A stretch of DNA of 25,119 nucleotides, from IMG/VR virus record IMGVR_UViG_3300008448_000581, positions 1 through 25,119 of that record, one strand, 5' to 3'. Positions 2,947 to 19,351 of the stretch are shown piece after piece (position 1 is the first letter of the stretch; each line of letters starts with the position of its first letter). The notes under the pieces were generated by a model. The model was not told the origin of the DNA. It saw nothing but the letters and a program-made list of their open reading frames with translations, and made no database searches. This stretch comes from a virus. The position numbers and the translations under genes are program-made.

Positions 2947-3858
2947 ATGGCAATTTCACGTTCCCAGCTACTCAAGGAACTGCTCCCGGGCCTGAACGCG
3001 CTGTTCGGTCTGGAGTACGCCCGTTACGGCGAAGAGCATAAAGAAATCTACGAAACCGAATCTTCGGAACGTAGCTTTGAAGAAGAAACCAAGCTGTCCG
3101 GTTTCTCCGCTGCTCCGGTCAAGCCAGAAGGCCAATCCATGCAGTATGACAACGCGCAGGAAGCATGGACTGCACGGTATAACCACGAAACCATCGTCAG
3201 CGGTTTTGCGATCACCGAAGAAGCCATTGAGGACAACCTCTATGATTCTCTGTCGGCTCGTTACACCAAGGGGCTGGCCCGTTCGATGGCTTACACCAAG
3301 CAAGTCAAAGCGTCCTATGTGTTGAACAACGCCTTCTCCACCACCGTCACCTACGGCGATGGAAAGTCGCTGTGCGCCACGGATCACCCGCTGGTTTCTG
3401 GTGGCACCAACAGCAATCGCCCCACCATCGGCGCCGACCTGAACGAGACTTCGTTGGAAAACGCAGTCATTCAGATCGCCGGCTGGACGGACGAACGTGG
3501 CCTGTTGATCGCCGCCAAGCCCCGCAAGCTGATTGTTCCCCCTCAGTTGCAATTCGTCGCCACCCGCCTGCTCGGCACGGAACTCCGCGTCGGCACCACG
3601 GATAACGACATCAACGCGCTGAAGAACAACGGCTCGATCCCGGAAGGCTACACCGTCAACCACTGGCTGACCGACCCGAACGCGTGGTTCCTCATCACCG
3701 ACGTTCCGAATGGGCTGAAACACTTCGTGCGTACGCCCATGCAGACTGGAATGGATGGAGATTTTGACACGGGCAATGTTCGTTATAAGGCCCGCGAGCG
3801 GTATTCTTTTGGAGTGAGCGATCCGCTCGGTATCTTCGGTTCGCCCGGTTCGAGCTGA
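2947..3858 (+). CDS. Major capsid protein
   Basis: A 303-residue protein, ATG 2947 with AAGGAG at 2934-2939. The length and position (scaffold, decoration, capsid) fit an HK97-fold major head protein. Features include an N-terminal helix and extended arm (about residues 1-60), an internal region with WTARYNHETIVSGFAITEE and LARSMAYTKQVKAS like Mu gpT-type head subunits, a conserved LCATDHPLVSGGTNSNRPT turn, and a C-terminal NVRYKARERYSFGVSDPLGIFGS. It would form the icosahedral shell. The gene is distinctly G+C-rich (39 of 60 bases at 3481-3540) and is followed after 30 bases by an intrinsic terminator, as expected for a very highly expressed gene. I did not see a clear protease site, and no maturation protease lies in the window. 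Confidence 0.85.
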   Translation: MAISRSQLLKELLPGLNALFGLEYARYGEEHKEIYETESSERSFEEETKLSGFSAAPVKPEGQSMQYDNAQEAWTARYNHETIVSGFAITEEAIEDNLYDSLSARYTKGLARSMAYTKQVKASYVLNNAFSTTVTYGDGKSLCATDHPLVSGGTNSNRPTIGADLNETSLENAVIQIAGWTDERGLLIAAKPRKLIVPPQLQFVATRLLGTELRVGTTDNDINALKNNGSIPEGYTVNHWLTDPNAWFLITDVPNGLKHFVRTPMQTGMDGDFDTGNVRYKARERYSFGVSDPLGIFGSPGSS

Positions 3859-3888
3859 TGTAAAATCAAATACTTACGAGTGTTTGGA

Positions 3889-3909
3889 GGGGCCGAAAGG
3901 CCCCTTTTT
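3889..3909 (+). terminator. Intrinsic terminator after the capsid gene
   Basis: A perfect six-base-pair G/C stem, GGGGCC (3889-3894) with GGCCCC (3899-3904), encloses a GAAA tetraloop and is followed directly by five T (3905-3909). This is a classic rho-independent terminator. It would end much of the transcription from the head module and reduce read-through into the endonuclease and glycosyltransferase. Confidence 0.9.
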
Positions 3910-3981
3910 CATGCCTGTTTGCTTTTTGTTGGTTCCAGTGGTACATTACGGTCACTAGCTTTGTATCGCAAGGAGACGACG

Positions 3982-5061
3982 GTGACACAGGTAATCTACA
4001 AAATTATCAACTTGGTAAATGACAAATTTTATGTTGGAAGCACAAACAACAAGAAGGTGCGGTTTAGGCAGCACCGTAAATTGCTTCGAGGAAATCGACA
4101 CCATTGCAAGCATCTTCAAGCCGCATGGAACAAGTATGGTGAAGACAAATTTGATTTTCGAGTCATAGAAGAAGTCAGCACTGGAATATCATTGCAAGAA
4201 GTAGAAGATAAATACTTGCAAGAACACGTAGGTAAGCCATATTGCTACAACAGTGGATATGCTTCACAAGCACCTTGGAGGAATGCTCCTGCTCATGTAA
4301 CGCCAAATTTTGGGAAAGCCGTTAGTGAAGAGCAAAAGCAAGCCATTTCAACAACGCTAAAAGCTTTCTACGCAGAGAACTACTACAACCATCCGCGCGT
4401 AGGGAAATTGCATTCCGAAGAGACAAAAGCAAAAATCAGTGCAAGCAAGAAAGGCCAAAATGCCGGTGAAAGCCATTACCGTTACGGCCAAGTGTTGTCT
4501 CCAGAAGTGCGCGCAAAAATCAGTGCTACACAAGCTGGCAGGCCAAGCCCGCGCAAGGGGCAAAAAATGTCTGAGCAAGGGCGTAACAACGTCAAAGCTG
4601 CCGTCAAGCGTGGAGAAGAATCACATTTTTTCGGCAAGCGCCCGGTCAATGCAGACGATTTACAACGCGCCATTATTGCAACGCTACCTGACAGATTGGT
4701 ACGCGAATTTAAAAGCCTTACTGAAATGCGTAATACGTTAGGCGTGTCAATCGCAACGATTATTCGGGCATGCAAATCAGGCAATCCGGTGAAGTGTGGA
4801 GCAATTGCCGGGTGGGTGTTGTCATACAAAGACGCGCCACAAAATGTTGCGCCTGTCATCCCGCCGGAGTATGCACACCTGCCGCGCAGTCGCCAGCAGG
4901 CAAAGGAAGAAGGAGCCAAACAATACTTCACCGGCATTCCCTGTGATCGCGGCCATTTAAGCGTTAGATCGACTAAAGGAACATGTATAGAATGCAGGCG
5001 CGAAGACGATAAGCTCGCATATCAAAAAACCAAGGAGACAGCATGCAAGAAAAACGTGTAA
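3982..5061 (+). CDS. GIY-YIG homing endonuclease with NUMOD-like repeats
   Basis: A 359-residue protein. I chose GTG 3982 because AGGAG (3971-3975) sits six bases upstream and the nuclease domain begins at once; the frame is open back to GTG 3880 but that would run through the terminator. The N-terminal GIY-YIG domain (about 1-92) shows IYK (5-7), YVG (17-19), the catalytic arginine region R27-x3-H31, and probable metal-binding E75. Next come NUMOD3-like DNA-binding repeats (GKLHSEETKAKIS near 141, a second near 169-187, perhaps a third near 194), a helix-turn-helix resembling NUMOD1 (about 243-267), and a C-terminal C321-x3-H325-x9-C335-x2-C338 module in YFTGIPC...GH. It is a free-standing mobile endonuclease between capsid gene and glycosyltransferase. 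It overlaps the glycosyltransferase by 19 bases and contains that gene's ribosome site. Confidence 0.88.
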   Translation: MTQVIYKIINLVNDKFYVGSTNNKKVRFRQHRKLLRGNRHHCKHLQAAWNKYGEDKFDFRVIEEVSTGISLQEVEDKYLQEHVGKPYCYNSGYASQAPWRNAPAHVTPNFGKAVSEEQKQAISTTLKAFYAENYYNHPRVGKLHSEETKAKISASKKGQNAGESHYRYGQVLSPEVRAKISATQAGRPSPRKGQKMSEQGRNNVKAAVKRGEESHFFGKRPVNADDLQRAIIATLPDRLVREFKSLTEMRNTLGVSIATIIRACKSGNPVKCGAIAGWVLSYKDAPQNVAPVIPPEYAHLPRSRQQAKEEGAKQYFTGIPCDRGHLSVRSTKGTCIECRREDDKLAYQKTKETACKKNV

Positions 5062-5771
5062 GCCTGACAGGTCGCAAACTGATGATTGCTATTCCCGCGT
5101 ATGACGGAAAGATCAATATCCAGTCTGCCTTTGAACTCCCGCAACTGGCTTTGTCTGCGGCGAAGTACGGGTTCAATATCCAGCTTGTTCATATGTCAGG
5201 CTGCTCGATCATCACCCGCGCTCGCAACTCTTTGGTCAATCAGTTCCTAGAGTCGGACTGCACAGAACTTCTGTTCATCGACGCTGACATTCACTTCAAG
5301 CGCGATGATGTGATCCGCATCATGGCTCTTGGCGGGGATAAAGATGTGCTGGCAGGAGCGTACCCGCGCCGTGCCAAGGATCAAATGTTCTTTACCGACA
5401 TCTACTACAACGATCACGGCGGCATTGACCTGACGGAAGAAGGCTTGCTACAGGTAGAGCGTATTGGTACCGGGTTCATGTTTATCCGCCGCCACGTATT
5501 TGAAGTACTGCGCGACAAACACCCGGAGTGGAAGTATTGGGTGGATGTGGAGAAAACGCACCATTACTCGTTTTTTGACTTCTTGGTTACGCCGGAAGGG
5601 TACATGGGCGAGGACTATTTGTTCTGTGATCGAGTCAGGGCAGAAGGGTTTAAGGTCTATTTGGATTCGGAGATTAACCTCGGCCACTACGGAACAACGG
5701 AATTTACCGGCCATTTTGGGGAGCAAGTGCTCCAGCCGATGATTAAAAACGCTATGAAAAACAGTGTTTGA
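5043..5771 (+). CDS. Phage glycosyltransferase, GT-A-like
   Basis: A 242-residue cytoplasmic protein, ATG 5043 with AAGGAG at 5032-5037 inside the endonuclease gene. The GT-A-type nucleotide-sugar fold is indicated by an N-terminal strand LMIAIPAYDGK, an ARNSLV helix, and the metal-binding DxD-like FIDADIHF (about residue 77-84). It also has a GTGFMFIRR strand and a C-terminal GEDYLFCDRVRAEGF segment ending in a conserved-looking histidine (LGHYG). Such enzymes move a sugar from a nucleotide donor to an acceptor, with DxD holding the metal and diphosphate. The acceptor is unknown: neighbouring virion proteins, phage DNA or host surface sugars are all possible. Position next to the capsid gene favours virion glycosylation, but only by inference. 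Confidence 0.8.
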   Translation: MQEKRVSLTGRKLMIAIPAYDGKINIQSAFELPQLALSAAKYGFNIQLVHMSGCSIITRARNSLVNQFLESDCTELLFIDADIHFKRDDVIRIMALGGDKDVLAGAYPRRAKDQMFFTDIYYNDHGGIDLTEEGLLQVERIGTGFMFIRRHVFEVLRDKHPEWKYWVDVEKTHHYSFFDFLVTPEGYMGEDYLFCDRVRAEGFKVYLDSEINLGHYGTTEFTGHFGEQVLQPMIKNAMKNSV

Positions 5772-7995: not shown

Positions 7996-8385
7996 ATGAC
8001 CGACTATCTCGTTTTCCAGACCCAGCAAGCCGCGCAGTTAGCACTTGAAGTTATCTACGCCAACATGGTTGCGGCGATCAGCTCGCCCGATCTGCTGAAT
8101 GTTGCAACAGGGCAGGTGGTCGATAAAGACGATCTGACGCCTGATGAGGCGGTGCAGGTCAATGCTGACCAGCGACAGTTTCCAGTGTTCGGAGTGAATG
8201 CGGCGACCGGGCTCAAAGACCATGACAGCGGCTTCACAACCTCGTGGGCAACGGCGCAAGAAACGGTTGATGGCAAGTGGGTGTTTCCGCAACCAGACCA
8301 AGCCTTGATGGATGGCGTGGCGGATTATGTTGTCGAGCCGTACAATCCCGATTGGTTTCCGACAGAACCTACACCAAATGGCTAA
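7996..8385 (+). CDS. Small acidic protein downstream of LamG protein, unknown
   Basis: A 129-residue acidic protein starting at ATG 7996, one base after the upstream stop. It has an N-terminal amphipathic helix (FQTQQAAQLALEVIYANM), a DKDDLTPDEAVQVNADQRQ stretch, and a tryptophan-containing C-terminal part (TTSWATAQETVDGKWVFPQP) ending PDWFPTEPTPNG. I do not recognise a family. A small acidic protein coupled to a probable adhesin could be a fibre assembly chaperone or a partner subunit, but no motif proves this. The next gene begins eight bases before its end. Confidence 0.62.
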   Translation: MTDYLVFQTQQAAQLALEVIYANMVAAISSPDLLNVATGQVVDKDDLTPDEAVQVNADQRQFPVFGVNAATGLKDHDSGFTTSWATAQETVDGKWVFPQPDQALMDGVADYVVEPYNPDWFPTEPTPNG

Positions 8386-8647
8386 AAAATCGGTATCTTT
8401 AGCAGTCGTGCGCGGGGAAAAATTGCCGGTATCGCAAGGGGCAGGGCTGACCGCGAAAGGTCGAGCCAAATATAATCGTGAGACGGGGGCAAACTTGAAA
8501 CCTCCGGCACCAAGTCCTAAAACTAAAAAGGATGCGGCGCGTAAGAAATCATTTTGCTCGCGCATGGGGGCCATGCCCGGGCCAATGAAGGATGAGAAAG
8601 GTCGCCCCACGCGTAAAGCTGCGAGTTTGAAACGTTGGGGGTGCTAA
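8378..8647 (+). CDS. Small basic conserved phage protein (DUF6321-like)
   Basis: An 89-residue basic protein. ATG 8378 overlaps the previous gene by eight bases; the frame stays open to 8312, but this ATG gives the conserved start MAKKSVSLAVVRGEKLP. The pattern GLTAKGRAKYNRETG, then KKSFCSRM and a terminal LKRWGC is one I recall in phage proteins grouped as DUF6321 (recollection, not checked). Two cysteines, one in the SFC motif and one as the last residue, are the most distinctive points. Function is unknown; the high K/R content suggests nucleic-acid contact or binding to acidic virion proteins. It opens the cluster of tiny basic genes. Confidence 0.68.
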   Translation: MAKKSVSLAVVRGEKLPVSQGAGLTAKGRAKYNRETGANLKPPAPSPKTKKDAARKKSFCSRMGAMPGPMKDEKGRPTRKAASLKRWGC

Positions 8648-8649
8648 AT

Positions 8650-8859
8650 ATGCGGTATGAGGATTTGGACGACACAACCCGAGCAGGGTTAGATGCGCTG
8701 TCAATCTTTACGGTAGTGGGGACGCTCATAGATATGCTGCCTTCCATCGCTGCGGTTGTGACAATAGTATGGACGAGTATTCGTATCTACGAAACCGATA
8801 CCGTTCAAAAACTGCTTCGCCGTAAAGCATCTGACGAAAAAAACCCAGATGCCAAGTAA
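8650..8859 (+). CDS. Small membrane protein, holin-like
   Basis: A 69-residue protein from ATG 8650, two bases after the upstream stop. An acidic N-terminus (MRYEDLDDTTRAG) is followed by one hydrophobic segment (about residues 17-41, with VVTIVW at its end) and then a polar RIYETDTVQKLLRRK tail. The IVWT-x-IRIYET-x-TVQ ending is one I recall from phage proteins annotated as holins. One membrane span and a charged tail fit a T7-type holin. However, the recognisable endolysin is 7.6 kb downstream beside another holin-like gene (15520), so a role in tail-tip membrane contact is also possible. Confidence 0.6.
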   Translation: MRYEDLDDTTRAGLDALSIFTVVGTLIDMLPSIAAVVTIVWTSIRIYETDTVQKLLRRKASDEKNPDAK

Positions 8860-9211
8860 AAGCACAAAACAAGCGCGCTTCATGCGGGCAGTGGCTAACA
8901 GCCCTGAGTTTTCTAAAAAAGTAGGGGTGCCGACTTCTGTCGGTAAAGAGTTTGTACGCGCCGATAAAGGCCGCAATCTTAACGAGGGTGGGGAAATGGC
9001 TGAATCCAAAAAGATGGTGAAGAAAGAAGTGGCGTTCATGAAAGCTAAGGGTGCGCCTAAGTCAATGATTGCCCACGAAGAATCGGAAGTGAAGGGCATG
9101 AAGAAGGGCGGCAAGTGCTACGCTGCGGGCGGCTTCACCAAGTCGGCAGACGGCATCGCACAGAAGGGCAAGACCAAGGCAAAGCAGATTGTGATGAAAG
9201 GCAAGAAGTAA
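8849..9211 (+). CDS. Lysine-rich small phage protein, ADGIA motif
   Basis: A 120-residue strongly basic protein, ATG 8849, overlapping the preceding gene by 11 bases. It has three parts: an N-terminal KQARFMRAVANSPEFSKKVG followed by GVPTSVGKEFVRADKG; a middle MVKKEVAFMKAKGAPKSMIA; and a C-terminal KKGGKCYAAGGF, then KSADGIAQKGKTKAK (from about residue 98). The last motif recurs almost unchanged at the end of the next gene's product. There is no membrane segment or catalytic signature. A DNA-associated or internal virion role would suit the charge, but that is inference. Its stop TAA overlaps the next ATG. Confidence 0.7.
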   Translation: MPSKSTKQARFMRAVANSPEFSKKVGVPTSVGKEFVRADKGRNLNEGGEMAESKKMVKKEVAFMKAKGAPKSMIAHEESEVKGMKKGGKCYAAGGFTKSADGIAQKGKTKAKQIVMKGKK

Positions 9212-9513
9212 TGCCGGAAGAAAAGCGTAGCGAAGACCCGCTGGAAGGCGCTCAGTACGGCCCGAAAGAGCCTCGTAGTCGTGCGCAGCGCTTGATGGAC
9301 ACGTTATCTGACGTTGATCTTTACGCAGCCGCGCAGTCATTAGGCCCGACCGGATATGGTGTTGGCGGTATGACGAGCGTTGCAGGGAAAGCGTCAAAAG
9401 CCGCCAAGCCAGCAAGTAAGGCAAAGTATGCTAAGGGCGGTGCAGTTGGGTCGGCGTCTAAGCGTGCAGATGGGATTGCTCAACGTGGCAAGACAAAAGG
9501 CCGTATGGTCTGA
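9211..9513 (+). CDS. Small basic phage protein, ADGIA motif
   Basis: A 100-residue protein from ATG 9211 in a TAATG overlap with the preceding gene. The N-terminus is charged (MPEEKRSEDPLEGAQYGPKE), the centre has a likely helix RAQRLMDTLSDVDLYAAAQS and a glycine-rich GPTGYGVGGMTS, and the C-terminus is KYAKGGAVGSASKRADG followed by IAQRGKTKGRMV. The ending is a close copy of the end of the upstream protein, so the two probably share a partner or destination. No known domain can be assigned. Confidence 0.7.
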   Translation: MPEEKRSEDPLEGAQYGPKEPRSRAQRLMDTLSDVDLYAAAQSLGPTGYGVGGMTSVAGKASKAAKPASKAKYAKGGAVGSASKRADGIAQRGKTKGRMV

Positions 9514-9525
9514 TGGAGAGTCATC

Positions 9526-9777
9526 ATGATGGCAAGCAGGGGTATGGGCGCAATCAGCCCGTCCAAGATGCCCAAGGGCAAGAAGATCAAGCGCAAGGAT
9601 CATCCTCAAGATGTGACGATGTATCAGGAGGGTGGCAAGGTTGGCCTGTACGAGAACATCAATCGCAAACGTGAGCGTATTGCAGCGGGTTCCAAAGAGA
9701 AGATGAGGAAGCCCGGTAGCAAAGGCGCTCCGACCGAGGAAGCGTTCCGTAAGTCGGCACTCACAGCCAAGAGGTAA
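9526..9777 (+). CDS. Small basic phage protein, GAPTEEAF motif
   Basis: An 83-residue protein from ATG 9526 with TGGAGAG at 9513-9519; a second ATG follows directly. It is rich in K, R and G and has no hydrophobic segment. Recognisable pieces are KMPKGKKIKRKDHP, VTMYQEGGKVGLYENI, and RKRERIAAGSKEKMRKPGSK leading to GAPTEEAFRKSALTAKR. The last block resembles endings I recall from small proteins of uncultivated phages. YQEGGK is a variant of the Y-A-x-G-G motif in its neighbours. Function is unknown. Confidence 0.68.
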   Translation: MMASRGMGAISPSKMPKGKKIKRKDHPQDVTMYQEGGKVGLYENINRKRERIAAGSKEKMRKPGSKGAPTEEAFRKSALTAKR

Positions 9778-9779
9778 CT

Positions 9780-10496
9780 ATGGCAACATCCGGCACGACG
9801 GCGTTTAACCCGGAATTTACCGAGCTGGCTGAAATGGCGTGGGCACAAGCTGGCCGTGAAATGCGGTCTGGCTTTGACCTTCGCGTGGCTCGGTTTGCCA
9901 TGAACATGCTGACGATTGAGTTGGCAAATCGTGGCATCAATCTTTGGACAATCGAGCAGGGCACCATTCCGCTTGAGCAGGGCGTCAATACCTACAATCT
10001 TCCAGCTGACACGATTGATCTGTTGGAGCATGTCATTCGCACCAGTGCAGGCATGCAGAACAACCAGACTGATCTGAATATCACGCGGATCAGCGTATCA
10101 ACCTACTCCACAATCCCAAACAAACTGACACAAAGCCGACCGATCCAAGTATGGATTCAACGGCTGCGGGACAATCCAAAGATTACGGTGTGGCCGACGC
10201 CCGATCAAGGCACGGCTGGAAACCCGTACTATACGTTTGTCTATTGGCGTATGCGCCGTATTCAGGATGCAGGCGCGGGGATTGAGACGCAAGACCTGCC
10301 GTTCCGGTTTCTCCCGGCAATTATTGCTGGCTTGGCGTATCAGATTGCGCTTAAGACGCCGGAGCTGATTCAGCGTGTGCAAGTTCTCAAGTCTGAGTAC
10401 GACCAACAGTTTGACTTGGCTGCGGGCGAAGACAGAGAAAAGGCCGCTCTTAGGCTTGTGCCACGCGCTCAGTTTATTGGTGGTGGTGCGCGGTAA
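9780..10496 (+). CDS. Head-tail adaptor / tail tubular A-like protein
   Basis: A 238-residue protein, ATG 9780 three bases after the previous stop, with GAGG at 9770-9773. An N-terminal helix pair (FTELAEMAWAQAGREM, DLRVARFAMNMLTIELANRG) leads to WTIEQGTIPLEQGVNTYNLP, a central beta part with PIQVWIQRLRDNPKITVWPT and YTFVYWRMRRIQDAG, and C-terminal helices PFRFLPAIIAGLAYQIALK. Helical bundle plus beta domain with the Y-N-L-P turn is typical of adaptor proteins like T7 gp11 or P22 gp4, which join the portal to the tail nozzle. A second protein with the same layout is at 11338, so the two may be paralogous rings. Assignment is by architecture and recalled similarity. Confidence 0.65.
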   Translation: MATSGTTAFNPEFTELAEMAWAQAGREMRSGFDLRVARFAMNMLTIELANRGINLWTIEQGTIPLEQGVNTYNLPADTIDLLEHVIRTSAGMQNNQTDLNITRISVSTYSTIPNKLTQSRPIQVWIQRLRDNPKITVWPTPDQGTAGNPYYTFVYWRMRRIQDAGAGIETQDLPFRFLPAIIAGLAYQIALKTPELIQRVQVLKSEYDQQFDLAAGEDREKAALRLVPRAQFIGGGAR

Positions 10497-10879
10497 TGAG
10501 TAACAGGTTTTCCAGCGGCAAGTTCTCAATCGCACAGTGTGATGTGTGCGGATTCAGGTATAAACTGAAAGAGCTTAAAGCGCTGGTGATTAAAACAAAG
10601 CAAGTCAGCATCTTGGCTTGCCCGACATGCTGGACGCCGGATCATCCTCAACTTCAATTGGGTATGTATCCGGTAGATGATCCACAAGCGGTACGGAATC
10701 CACGCCGTGATAGTACCTATACACAGTCCGGCCAAACCAGTATTGGTACGTTTGGCGAAGGCAGCCGGATTGTGCAGTGGGGATGGAATCCGGTCGGTGG
10801 GGCAAGTTTGGATGCGGCAGGCCTGGTGCCTAATGCGTTGGTCGCCAAGGCAGAAGTAGGCCAAGTAACAGTTTCTTAG
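10496..10879 (+). CDS. Zinc-ribbon phage structural protein
   Basis: A 127-residue protein starting in a TAATG overlap with the adaptor gene. A zinc-ribbon knuckle pair is plain: CDVCG at residues 15-19 and CPTCW about 24 residues later, separated by KLKELKALVIKTKQVSILA. Next come the conserved-looking PDHPQLQLGMYPVDDPQAVRNPR and a glycine-rich C-terminal half that may be extended or beta-rich (GTFGEGSRIVQWGWNPVGG). Zinc-ribbon proteins of this form often lie beside adaptor genes in phage tail modules. It probably binds one structural zinc ion and belongs to the neck or tail, though that role is inferred from context. Confidence 0.7.
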   Translation: MSNRFSSGKFSIAQCDVCGFRYKLKELKALVIKTKQVSILACPTCWTPDHPQLQLGMYPVDDPQAVRNPRRDSTYTQSGQTSIGTFGEGSRIVQWGWNPVGGASLDAAGLVPNALVAKAEVGQVTVS

Positions 10880-10888
10880 GGGATAAAC

Positions 10889-11083
10889 ATGGAAATGAAG
10901 AAAGTGGCTAAGACGGAAGCCAAAAAAGCGGTCAAAGCGCATGAGAAAAAGATGCACGCTCAGAAGTTTGCCAAAGGCGGCAAGACCAACGCTCAAATGA
11001 AAGAACTCGGGCGCGGTTTGGCTAAGGCGGCAAATCAGAAGAAGTCGTCATTCACCTACAAAGGCGAAAAGACCAATGCCTAA
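10889..11083 (+). CDS. Tiny lysine-rich phage protein
   Basis: A 64-residue, very basic protein (ATG 10889, site TTAGGGG at 10876-10882). The N-terminal half is an A/K helix (KTEAKKAVKAHEKKMHAQ), followed by FAKGGKTNAQMKELGRGLAK and a K/S/T-rich end. FAKGG is another example of the aromatic-A-x-G-G motif of this cluster. It overlaps the next gene by eight bases. Composition recalls DNA-binding or internal virion peptides, but nothing more specific can be seen. Confidence 0.68.
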   Translation: MEMKKVAKTEAKKAVKAHEKKMHAQKFAKGGKTNAQMKELGRGLAKAANQKKSSFTYKGEKTNA

Positions 11084-11333
11084 GTTCAGCAAGAAGTTGA
11101 TGGGCAAAGAGGTTGGTCAGGCATCTACCTACGCGGAGCCGCATACCATGCAAGGTAAAAAGACTAAAGAGCAGGACTACGGGCGGGACATCCCGTTCAA
11201 AAAGAAGAAGAACTGGAAGCCAATGGATGGCGTGTCCATGAGCCTTGACGATGACGTTAAGACTACTGGCATCAAGATTCGTGGCACCGGCGCTGCTAAA
11301 AAGGGTGTGACGGCCCGAGGCCCGATGGGTTGA
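11076..11333 (+). CDS. Small basic phage protein, IKIRGTGAA motif
   Basis: An 85-residue protein, ATG 11076, overlapping the previous gene by eight bases. After KFSKKLMGKEVGQ it has YAEPHTMQGKKTKEQDYGRD, a lysine patch (PFKKKKNW), an acidic DDDVKTTG, and a C-terminal IKIRGTGAAKKGVTARGPMG. I recall this last motif as a conserved ending in small proteins of related uncultivated phages. No fold or function can be assigned. Its stop is four bases before the next start. Confidence 0.68.
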   Translation: MPKFSKKLMGKEVGQASTYAEPHTMQGKKTKEQDYGRDIPFKKKKNWKPMDGVSMSLDDDVKTTGIKIRGTGAAKKGVTARGPMG

Positions 11334-11337
11334 GATC

Positions 11338-11988
11338 ATGCTGTATGCCGATCTGGTAGCCCGCGTCAGCGATACGACGGAAAACACTTTTGATACCGCC
11401 GTGATGGATAACTTCATCCGTCAGTCGGAAACACGCATTTACCAGACGGTACAGCTTGCGAATCTGCGGAAGGACACAAGCGGCACGCTGGTGATTGGGA
11501 CGCCGACGGTCAATTGCCCGACCGACTTACTGTCTATTTATTCAGTAGCCGTGGTGGATGCAGGCGGTGCGTGGAATTTTCTGCTCAACAAAGACATCAA
11601 CTTTCTGCGGGAAGCGTACCCGAATCCTAATACGACGGGGACGCCACGGCACTACGCTATTACCCAGCCCGCAACGGGTAATGACTTGACGTTACGCCTG
11701 ACGTTCGCGCCGACGCCGAGCGCAGCATTGACGTATGAAATCAATTATTCCTACCGGCCAGAATCTATTGTCACGGCTAACGAGACATGGCTTGGGGATC
11801 ACTTTGATAACGCGCTGTTCAATGGCACGTTGGTTGAAGCGGCTCGATACATGAAGGCCGAGCCTGACATTGTGAAGCTGTACAACGATATGTACGAGCA
11901 ATCGATTGCACTCCTCAAGAACTTGGGCGATGGCAAGCAGCGTCAGGACGGCTACCGTAGCGGCCAAGTCAGAATACAGGTGAATTGA
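11338..11988 (+). CDS. Phage adaptor / tail tubular A-like protein
   Basis: A 216-residue protein from ATG 11338. An N-terminal helix with DNFIRQSETRIYQTVQLANLR is followed by beta structure (GTLVIGTPTVNCPTDLLSIY, PRHYAI, LRLTFAPTP, YEINYSYRPES) and C-terminal helices with FNGTLVEAARYMK and YNDMYEQSIALLKNLGDGKQ. The Q-S-E-x-R-I helix, Pro-Thr-Asp-Leu turn and YxINYxxRP strand are what I recall in the SU10-type adaptor family, which links portal and nozzle. Its stop overlaps the next ATG (TGATG 11986-11990). It is probably part of the same neck complex as the 9780 product. Confidence 0.72.
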   Translation: MLYADLVARVSDTTENTFDTAVMDNFIRQSETRIYQTVQLANLRKDTSGTLVIGTPTVNCPTDLLSIYSVAVVDAGGAWNFLLNKDINFLREAYPNPNTTGTPRHYAITQPATGNDLTLRLTFAPTPSAALTYEINYSYRPESIVTANETWLGDHFDNALFNGTLVEAARYMKAEPDIVKLYNDMYEQSIALLKNLGDGKQRQDGYRSGQVRIQVN

Positions 11989-18661: not shown

Positions 18662-18718
18662 ATGCACGAAGCGATGGAAAGTAGTAGAATGGCGTAGTTT
18701 TCATTTTTGGAGAATCTC

Positions 18719-19351
18719 ATGCCTCGCTTTGTTGATCGTACTGGACATCGCTACGGACGTTTGACCGCTGCCGAGCAGGTCGGCACCAATCACTACAAAA
18801 AAATATTATGGCGTTGTGTTTGCGATTGCGGGAATGAGGTAGTGGTAAATAGCAGCGCATTAGGGAGTGGAAAGACATTGTCATGCGGCTGCTACTTAAA
18901 AGAGCGCATCACTAAACACGGTTCATCTAAAAAATCTTCGTACAATACTTGGCGGGCTATGGTGCGCCGCTGTCACACGCCAACGGATAAAGACTATCCA
19001 CGTTATGGTGGAAAAGGGGTAACTGTGTGTGAGCGATGGCGTGAATATACCAATTTCGCTGCCGATATGGGCGAACCCAGCGGAGACGAAACGCTTGATA
19101 GGATTGATACGTATGGAAACTACGAACCAACCAATTGCCGTTGGGCTGGGGTAAAAACGCAAAACAGAAATGTACGTGTCCGGGCGTCCAGCAAGACTGG
19201 CGTAGTCGGAGTTAGTGAAACACAACACGGAACCTACATAGCAAAAGTGACCGTCGGGAAAAAAGCGTTTTACTCCAAGCGCTTCAAAACAATAGAAGAA
19301 GCTGCCGCAGCACGCAAACAGCTTGAATGTTTGCACTGGGGAGAAGTTTAA
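18719..19351 (+). CDS. Homing endonuclease: zinc finger, HNH-like and AP2-like
   Basis: A 210-residue protein, ATG 18719 with TGGAGA at 18708-18713. Domain order: an N-terminal Cys cluster (C33/C35/C37, then C56-x-C58), likely a zinc finger in RCVCDCGNEV...SCGCYLKE; an arginine-rich middle SYNTWRAMVRRCHTP; an HNH-type core E-T-L-D-R-I-D (126-130), then YEPTNCRWAGVKTQNRN (about 135-151); and a C-terminal AP2-like DNA-binding segment (about 159-205, TGVVGVSE...YSKRFKTIEEAAAARKQLE). This order is typical of free-standing phage endonucleases that cut a neighbouring allele and spread by repair. It sits between nozzle and structural gene. A stretch at 18901-18960 has 25 G+C of 60 by my count. The stop overlaps the next ATG. 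Confidence 0.85.
   Translation: MPRFVDRTGHRYGRLTAAEQVGTNHYKKILWRCVCDCGNEVVVNSSALGSGKTLSCGCYLKERITKHGSSKKSSYNTWRAMVRRCHTPTDKDYPRYGGKGVTVCERWREYTNFAADMGEPSGDETLDRIDTYGNYEPTNCRWAGVKTQNRNVRVRASSKTGVVGVSETQHGTYIAKVTVGKKAFYSKRFKTIEEAAAARKQLECLHWGEV

Follow-up and report, generated by a model that had tools for sequence, protein, structure and literature searches.

In the 25,119-base IMG/VR virus record IMGVR_UViG_3300008448_000581 (here called the window), which represents the structural half of an aquatic phage genome, several small basic proteins end in a common peptide. We call it tag A in genes 8849 and 9211, where it has 25-30 residues, and tag B in gene 11076, which bears a related form (genes are named by their first position; Table 1). 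This tag is almost certainly a real and translated element. It stands on many unrelated protein bodies and is restricted to a single phage lineage and, there, to the genes of the head-neck module. The reading that we favour, though tentatively, is that the cluster encodes small, basic, largely disordered proteins whose common short C-terminal docking tag would recruit them into the assembling head. Tags A and B are in none of the family libraries searched, and a search of the open-access literature by exact letters gave no paper with the tag letters or with a shared C-terminal motif of small basic phage proteins, so the tag appears not to have been described before.

The alignment of genes 8849 and 9211 to their relatives brings out a common C-terminal stretch around ADGIAQ(K/R)GKTK, and the full consensus of tag A reads K-[MYF]-[AK]-x-G-G-x-V-x-S-A-S-[KR]-R-[AG]-D-G-[IC]-A-x-[KR]-G-K-T-[KR]-G-x-M-x-COOH. 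We collected 258 distinct tag A proteins, with none on the opposite strand, from contigs on which genes were called with a simple greedy caller. The chain ends exactly four residues past the searched core in 180 of them, and in 133 a GG pair stands at a fixed distance N-terminal to the core, in every case after one hydrophobic residue and one that is small or basic. An alignment of 83 proteins with different bodies has almost its entire consensus in the tag, where R, G, D, G, A, G and T are kept strictly; the overall charge of the peptide is about +6. In some relatives that lack the strict tag A, the island contains a variant form, for example GGKVRGAGCAKKGVRPCKMM. The Walker-A-like look of the core (GxxxxGKT) was set aside, since the tail has no nucleoside triphosphatase fold and the lysine is sometimes replaced by histidine.

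The DNA behind the tag indicates on what level it has been maintained. Among 250 distinct DNA sequences of the core, the fixed codons hardly vary at their first and second positions, and third-position identity is 0.25-0.56, a result in which the search pattern itself partly imposes the fixed residues, but not the third positions. This freedom of the third codon positions shows that the tag is selected as a protein. The island that holds the tagged genes is highly mosaic, as would be expected if the tag were a by-product at the DNA level, either a repeated recombination site or the chance composition of lysine- and glycine-rich proteins, yet such an origin is scarcely credible. Besides the codon pattern, the two tags A of the window differ at most synonymous sites, the core occurs about 200-fold over shuffles and is always C-terminal in called genes, and third positions agree at 0.49 within contigs and 0.43 between them, against recent copying. 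The same small difference led us to reject gene conversion between the tags of one genome as the main cause of their likeness. The tag residues are also slightly more alike within contigs (0.733 versus 0.694; 0 of 500 permutations), an effect too small to use.

Tag B, with the consensus GIKxRGTGAATKGxMARGPM, has a single copy in each of 75 loci and is attached to varied bodies, a 10889-type body in L043 and L140 among them. It was found once each in 77 of 77 further contigs, which had been retrieved through tag B itself, and in nine of ten long contigs; a search of gene 11076 with its tag against the phage collection gave no match at E 5. Both tags contain the core R-[AGS]-x-G-x-[AC]-x-[KR]-G, and by their sequences they are one motif superfamily. 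This unified core has 200 matches in 2,891 predicted proteins, where shuffles expect 0.9, and each of the 200 lies at most 30 residues from the C-terminus.

The distribution of the tags is strikingly narrow. A search with the tag alone gave at least 497 viral contigs among 600 that matched the pattern, and across 84,980 bacterial and archaeal species there were three contigs with a tag, two of which carry genes of this phage. The third, with an apparent cellular tagged protein in a Patulibacter metagenome-assembled genome (L167, 6746-8425), was discarded as a candidate: its tag runs into an acyltransferase-like frame close to the end of the contig, probably through chimeric assembly. Genes of this phage lineage are present in all 79 analysed contigs found through the tag; as the contigs of relatives were the best-scoring 80 of each search, rare cases in other lineages may escape. 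Within the lineage, contigs with an adaptor gene hold 195 tag A genes, of which 194 lie between the major capsid protein and that adaptor. Retrieval through the capsid gene first recovered tag A in 25 of 38 complete intervals and nowhere else in those loci. Contigs found through tag B, independently of how tag A was defined, place 99 of 105 tag A genes upstream of the adaptor, and 35 of the 37 with enough upstream sequence carry a tag A gene; in four of the six exceptions the core is N-terminal, on a 10889-type protein. In near-complete contigs the tag matches are confined to the head-neck region, so far as positions were checked. By their capsid protein, the nearest isolates to the window are Planktothrix phage Pag-Yong1, phage DSL-LC04 and Pelagibacter phage HTVC023P, and the isolates with tag A are Pag-Yong1, whose tagged protein is UMO75986.1 of 308 residues, and two records of equal length and similarity.

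The bodies that precede tag A are as diverse as the tag is constant. Clustered permissively they give at least 84 families, and at E 1e-6 they give 121; under the strictest clustering, none of 227 tagged pairs from the same contig has related bodies, and contigs whose adaptors are 60-80% identical have only about 10% of their tagged bodies in common. No PHROG matches 82 of the 83 body representatives, for which Pfam returned DUF6321 once and four isolated weak matches that are regarded as chance; no enzyme or ferritin family was found among these 83 body types. Searches of PHROGs, Pfam, NCBIfam, PADLOC and the PDB sequences with bodies and tag gave nothing useful besides DUF6321, phrog_16759, phrog_16028 and the adaptor family. 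The bodies are mostly net basic and poor in order-promoting residues (0.15, versus 0.29 in large untagged proteins). In the structure model of gene 8849, three helices form the N-terminal domain with high confidence, and the predicted local distance difference test score is about 50 or lower over residues 81-120, the tag being in this model a flexible tail.

Such charge and disorder would also fit the main rival explanation, in which the tag is a nucleic-acid-binding peptide and the proteins use their charge to cover or compact the phage genome, or to bind RNA, the contact being made by the tag itself instead of a capsid partner. We consider it unlikely, if still the strongest of the alternatives. 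The strictly kept residues of the tag go beyond charge and suggest a specific partner, so that this explanation fits the charge and not the sequence; moreover, generic DNA binding leaves the restriction to one gene module unexplained. A second alternative, in which the host cell is where the proteins act, recruited by the tag to one host target and with bodies that vary with the host, draws on the fast exchange of bodies, which resembles that of host-directed gene sets, and on the T4 internal proteins, which combine packaging with a host role (PMC3012670). It seems rather improbable: tagged genes are all in the late head-neck module, with none elsewhere in the near-complete contigs where positions were checked, so that body turnover agrees with a host-directed role and gene position does not, and a common tag across phages of presumably different hosts would need a universal host target.

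Part of this tag had already been noticed in a first-pass annotation of the window, which described a cluster of six basic proteins of 64-120 residues among nine genes, several of them with a short aromatic-A-x-G-G motif. The proteins are indeed those of genes 8378, 8849, 9211, 9526, 10889 and 11076, with isoelectric points of 9.9-10.9, and the motifs are in place: YAAGGF at 9119-9136, YAKGGA from 9427, YQEGGK from 9622 and FAKGGK from 10967. In a form defined post hoc, [YF][AQ][AEK]{1,2}GG, the motif is found in four of the nine cluster proteins where shuffling expects 0.02. The count against shuffled controls that the annotation had proposed was run on 616 small basic proteins of related contigs and gave 88 matches to [YF]A.{1,2}GG versus 4.8 expected, and 349 to [YFML][AK].GG versus 22.9; in other, non-basic small proteins there is little or no excess (7 versus 14.0 and 32 versus 22.6, respectively). 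The motif is thus far over what composition would give, and the cluster proteins recur in relatives, so that neither of the outcomes named beforehand as refuting the idea has come about. What the annotation took for the whole tag is, in genes 8849 and 9211, only the front edge of the longer C-terminal peptide. Its proposal that adjacent genes with different bodies and the same tag have a common partner or destination is strongly supported by hundreds of relatives, with the amendment that the true tag is longer, C-terminal and not on all of the proteins grouped: genes 9526 and 10889 have the GG motif without the tag core, gene 8378 has neither, and gene 11076 was not counted among the motif carriers. 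The partial product of gene 24619, listed as a further carrier, does contain YAAEGG; without the core and with no relatives found, it is not grouped with the cluster. The GG motif also has an N-terminal version, M-R-x-Y-Y-x-x-G-G-x-V, with which several cluster proteins of L016, L036, L074 and other loci begin.

The GG pair itself allows a different function to be imagined. Some viral proteases cut small basic core proteins after GG, and by analogy [YFM]-A-x-G-G might be a protease site and the remainder of the tag a released peptide. The fixed distance between GG and core in about half of the tagged proteins, where GG always follows a hydrophobic residue and one that is small or basic, would suit such a site, as would the GG motif near the N-terminus of some bodies. 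We nevertheless hold cleavage to be quite improbable, since the strictest residues are downstream of GG, in the peptide that would be discarded, and no S78 prohead protease was found in 10 contigs (a result for the S78 type). The resemblance to the bacterial KGG stress-induced repeat, also found in small basic proteins rich in K-G-G, is superficial, as the first-pass annotation had supposed: here there is a single C-terminal core with other residues and no repeat, and the Pfam scan of the window proteins gave no KGG match at E 0.1.

As destination, the first-pass annotation had offered the capsid interior, DNA or a host protein, which sequence does not separate; gene position favours the head. 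Docking in the head would account for tags tied to the head module of one lineage, on many bodies, as a flexible basic tail in a mosaic island. The tag might bind one constant partner in the assembling head, such as the scaffold (encoded at 923-1873 in the window), the inner shell surface, the portal or the adaptor, and each new body that acquired it would be carried into the particle. The lysine-rich bodies would probably lie against the packaged DNA inside the head and leave with it at infection. A precedent exists in the internal proteins of phage T4, a diverse set with only a capsid-targeting sequence in common (PMC3012670), which carries foreign proteins into heads (PMC7697877). The system described here would work in the same way, with bodies exchanged rapidly and the tag kept.

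The head context is reinforced by the other proteins of the cluster, which adjoin head genes in unrelated phages. A DUF6321 protein, like that of gene 8378, and a 9526-type protein are neighbours in the unrelated cyanophages S-SBP1, between capsid-assembly and capsid genes, and KBS-P-1A, shortly 3′ of the head-tail connector; in DSL-LC05, the DUF6321 gene comes after that of the terminase, with the portal a few genes further on. A bolder and shakier extension would be that, in an abundant aquatic phage lineage, a conserved C-terminal address serves to load the head with small basic proteins whose repertoire is open-ended and quickly exchanged, and which are delivered with the genome, as a modular cargo system with bodies that can replace one another.

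The likeness to T4 internal proteins IPI-III extends to a short peptide on diverse, fast-changing, small lysine-rich proteins in a head context, and the tag is likewise found on unrelated proteins of one phage group (258 proteins in at least 84 families). The T4 signal, on the other hand, is N-terminal, about 10 residues long and removed by the head protease, whereas the tags here are C-terminal in 200 of 200 core matches (four further contigs have an N-terminal core) and of 25-30 residues. Because the position differs, we do not class the tag as a T4 capsid-targeting sequence, nor do we claim any sequence relationship to it; packaging is shown for the T4 proteins and only inferred here. Several other points weigh against head docking. 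The placement in the head rests on gene position, which is not proof of packaging, and the co-occurrence of the tag with the lineage could be plain inheritance. The bodies look disordered, unlike the compact IPI* of T4, and the failure to find an S78 protease in the 10 contigs bears on this reading too. DSL-LC04, HTVC023P, CRP-902 and QDWS535 belong to the same capsid family without having tag A. Finally, the four N-terminal cores, all in 10889-type proteins, depart from a C-terminal address, and they indicate a movable peptide module rather than merely a chain end.

A second comparison is offered by the targeting peptides of encapsulins, C-terminal flexible tails that guide proteins to a capsid-like shell and whose cargo genes adjoin the shell gene (PMC6668986). 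The tags share with them the C-terminal position and the proximity to the gene of a shell protein, the HK97-type fold of which is suggested by its phrog_371 family. Encapsulin cargo, in contrast, consists of dedicated folded enzymes and ferritin-like proteins, and the 83 body types here are disordered basic proteins with no such family among them; the two systems are likened by description, not by sequence.

Most genes of aquatic phages lack a known function. The tag unites hundreds of them in a single class with a constant position in the genome, recognisable in metagenomes where similarity searches fail. Identification of its partner would suggest a shared role for the whole set. If the tag is a head-loading signal, a common environmental lineage would have in it a C-terminal equivalent of the T4 capsid-targeting sequence, and the variable bodies would amount to a list of candidate injected proteins.

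Table 1. Cluster proteins, tags and bordering genes in the window.
Feature	Positions	Strand	Basis
Major capsid protein, left border of tag A island	2947..3858	+	phrog_371 major head protein, E 3.8e-22
Small basic protein, 89 residues, DUF6321, Cys at end like relatives	8378..8647	+	PF19846, E 1.4e-26; invariant residues in 52 relatives
Small basic protein, 120 residues, N-terminal three-helix domain (phrog_16759), disordered tail ending in tag A	8849..9211	+	phrog_16759, E 1e-20; structure model; tagged homologues
Tag A of gene 8849: YAAGGFTKSADGIAQKGKTKAKQIVMKGKK	9119..9208	+	core motif in sequence
Small basic protein, 100 residues, unique body, tag A at end	9211..9513	+	no PHROG, Pfam or NCBIfam match; tag
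Tag A of gene 9211: YAKGGAVGSASKRADGIAQRGKTKGRMV	9427..9510	+	core motif in sequence
Small basic protein, 83 residues, GG motif YQEGG (9622-9636), C-terminal phrog_16028 part, without tag core	9526..9777	+	phrog_16028, E 9.1e-20
First adaptor (SU10_adaptor), right border of tag A island	9780..10496	+	PF24175, E 1.3e-11
Small basic protein, 64 residues, GG motif FAKGG (10967-10981), without tag core	10889..11083	+	KGG column kept in 45 relatives
Small basic protein, 85 residues, tag B at end	11076..11333	+	comparison with relatives
Tag B of gene 11076: KTTGIKIRGTGAAKKGVTARGPMG	11259..11330	+	core motif in sequence
Second adaptor-like virion protein, directly 3′ of tag B gene	11338..11988	+	phrog_2941, E 3.1e-11

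The nine genes are situated between the capsid gene (2947) and the second adaptor-like gene (11338) and are interleaved with SU10_adaptor (9780) and a conserved protein (10496). Stop/start overlaps read from the sequence join several cluster genes (8849/8859, TAATG at 9211, and 11076/11083). Three known families, DUF6321 (PF19846), phrog_16759 and phrog_16028, hold gene 8378, the N-terminal domain of gene 8849 and the C-terminal part of gene 9526, respectively, and the tags are separate from them save for occasional fusions, such as the DUF6321 protein that carries tag A in L081. Gene 8378 scores 93.3 bits against PF19846, over the Pfam gathering score of 28.5, and larger phage proteins in PHROGs can end in this domain too. 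The GG column of gene 9526 is kept in 92 relatives, and the body of gene 10889 bears in some relatives the tag A core at its N-terminus or tag B at its C-terminus. AlphaFold models of DUF6321 and gene 8849 were searched for similar folds without a match below E 0.001.

Jumbo phages, phiKZ-like and others, also have the N-terminal domain of gene 8849, as do PHROGs with a virion structural annotation, and some proteins so annotated begin with it. PHIKZ165.1 of phiKZ (L087, 6001-6177) is a stand-alone copy of 58 residues; the mentions in the phiKZ literature refer to PHIKZ165, not to 165.1. Cysteine ends 91 of the 258 tag A proteins, as an invariant cysteine ends DUF6321 proteins, and these terminal residues might possibly make disulfide or metal contacts.

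In the surroundings of the cluster, no RNA families or tRNAs were found in the window, and promoter and terminator patterns of the cluster region show no excess over shuffles. An acidic protein of 69 residues with one likely membrane span (8650-8859), possibly holin-like by its sequence, lies amid the basic cluster and has no relatives in the loci compared. The frame at 3-341 presumably encodes a GroES-like co-chaperonin, and a GroES gene is at the matching place in annotated isolates of the same capsid family. Three further frames (3880-5061, 310-930 and 18707-19351), one of them directly 3′ of the capsid gene, have the look of what we take to be homing or HNH-type endonucleases. A glycosyltransferase-like protein (phrog_1574) is encoded at 5043-5771 and stands beside the capsid gene in many relatives too.

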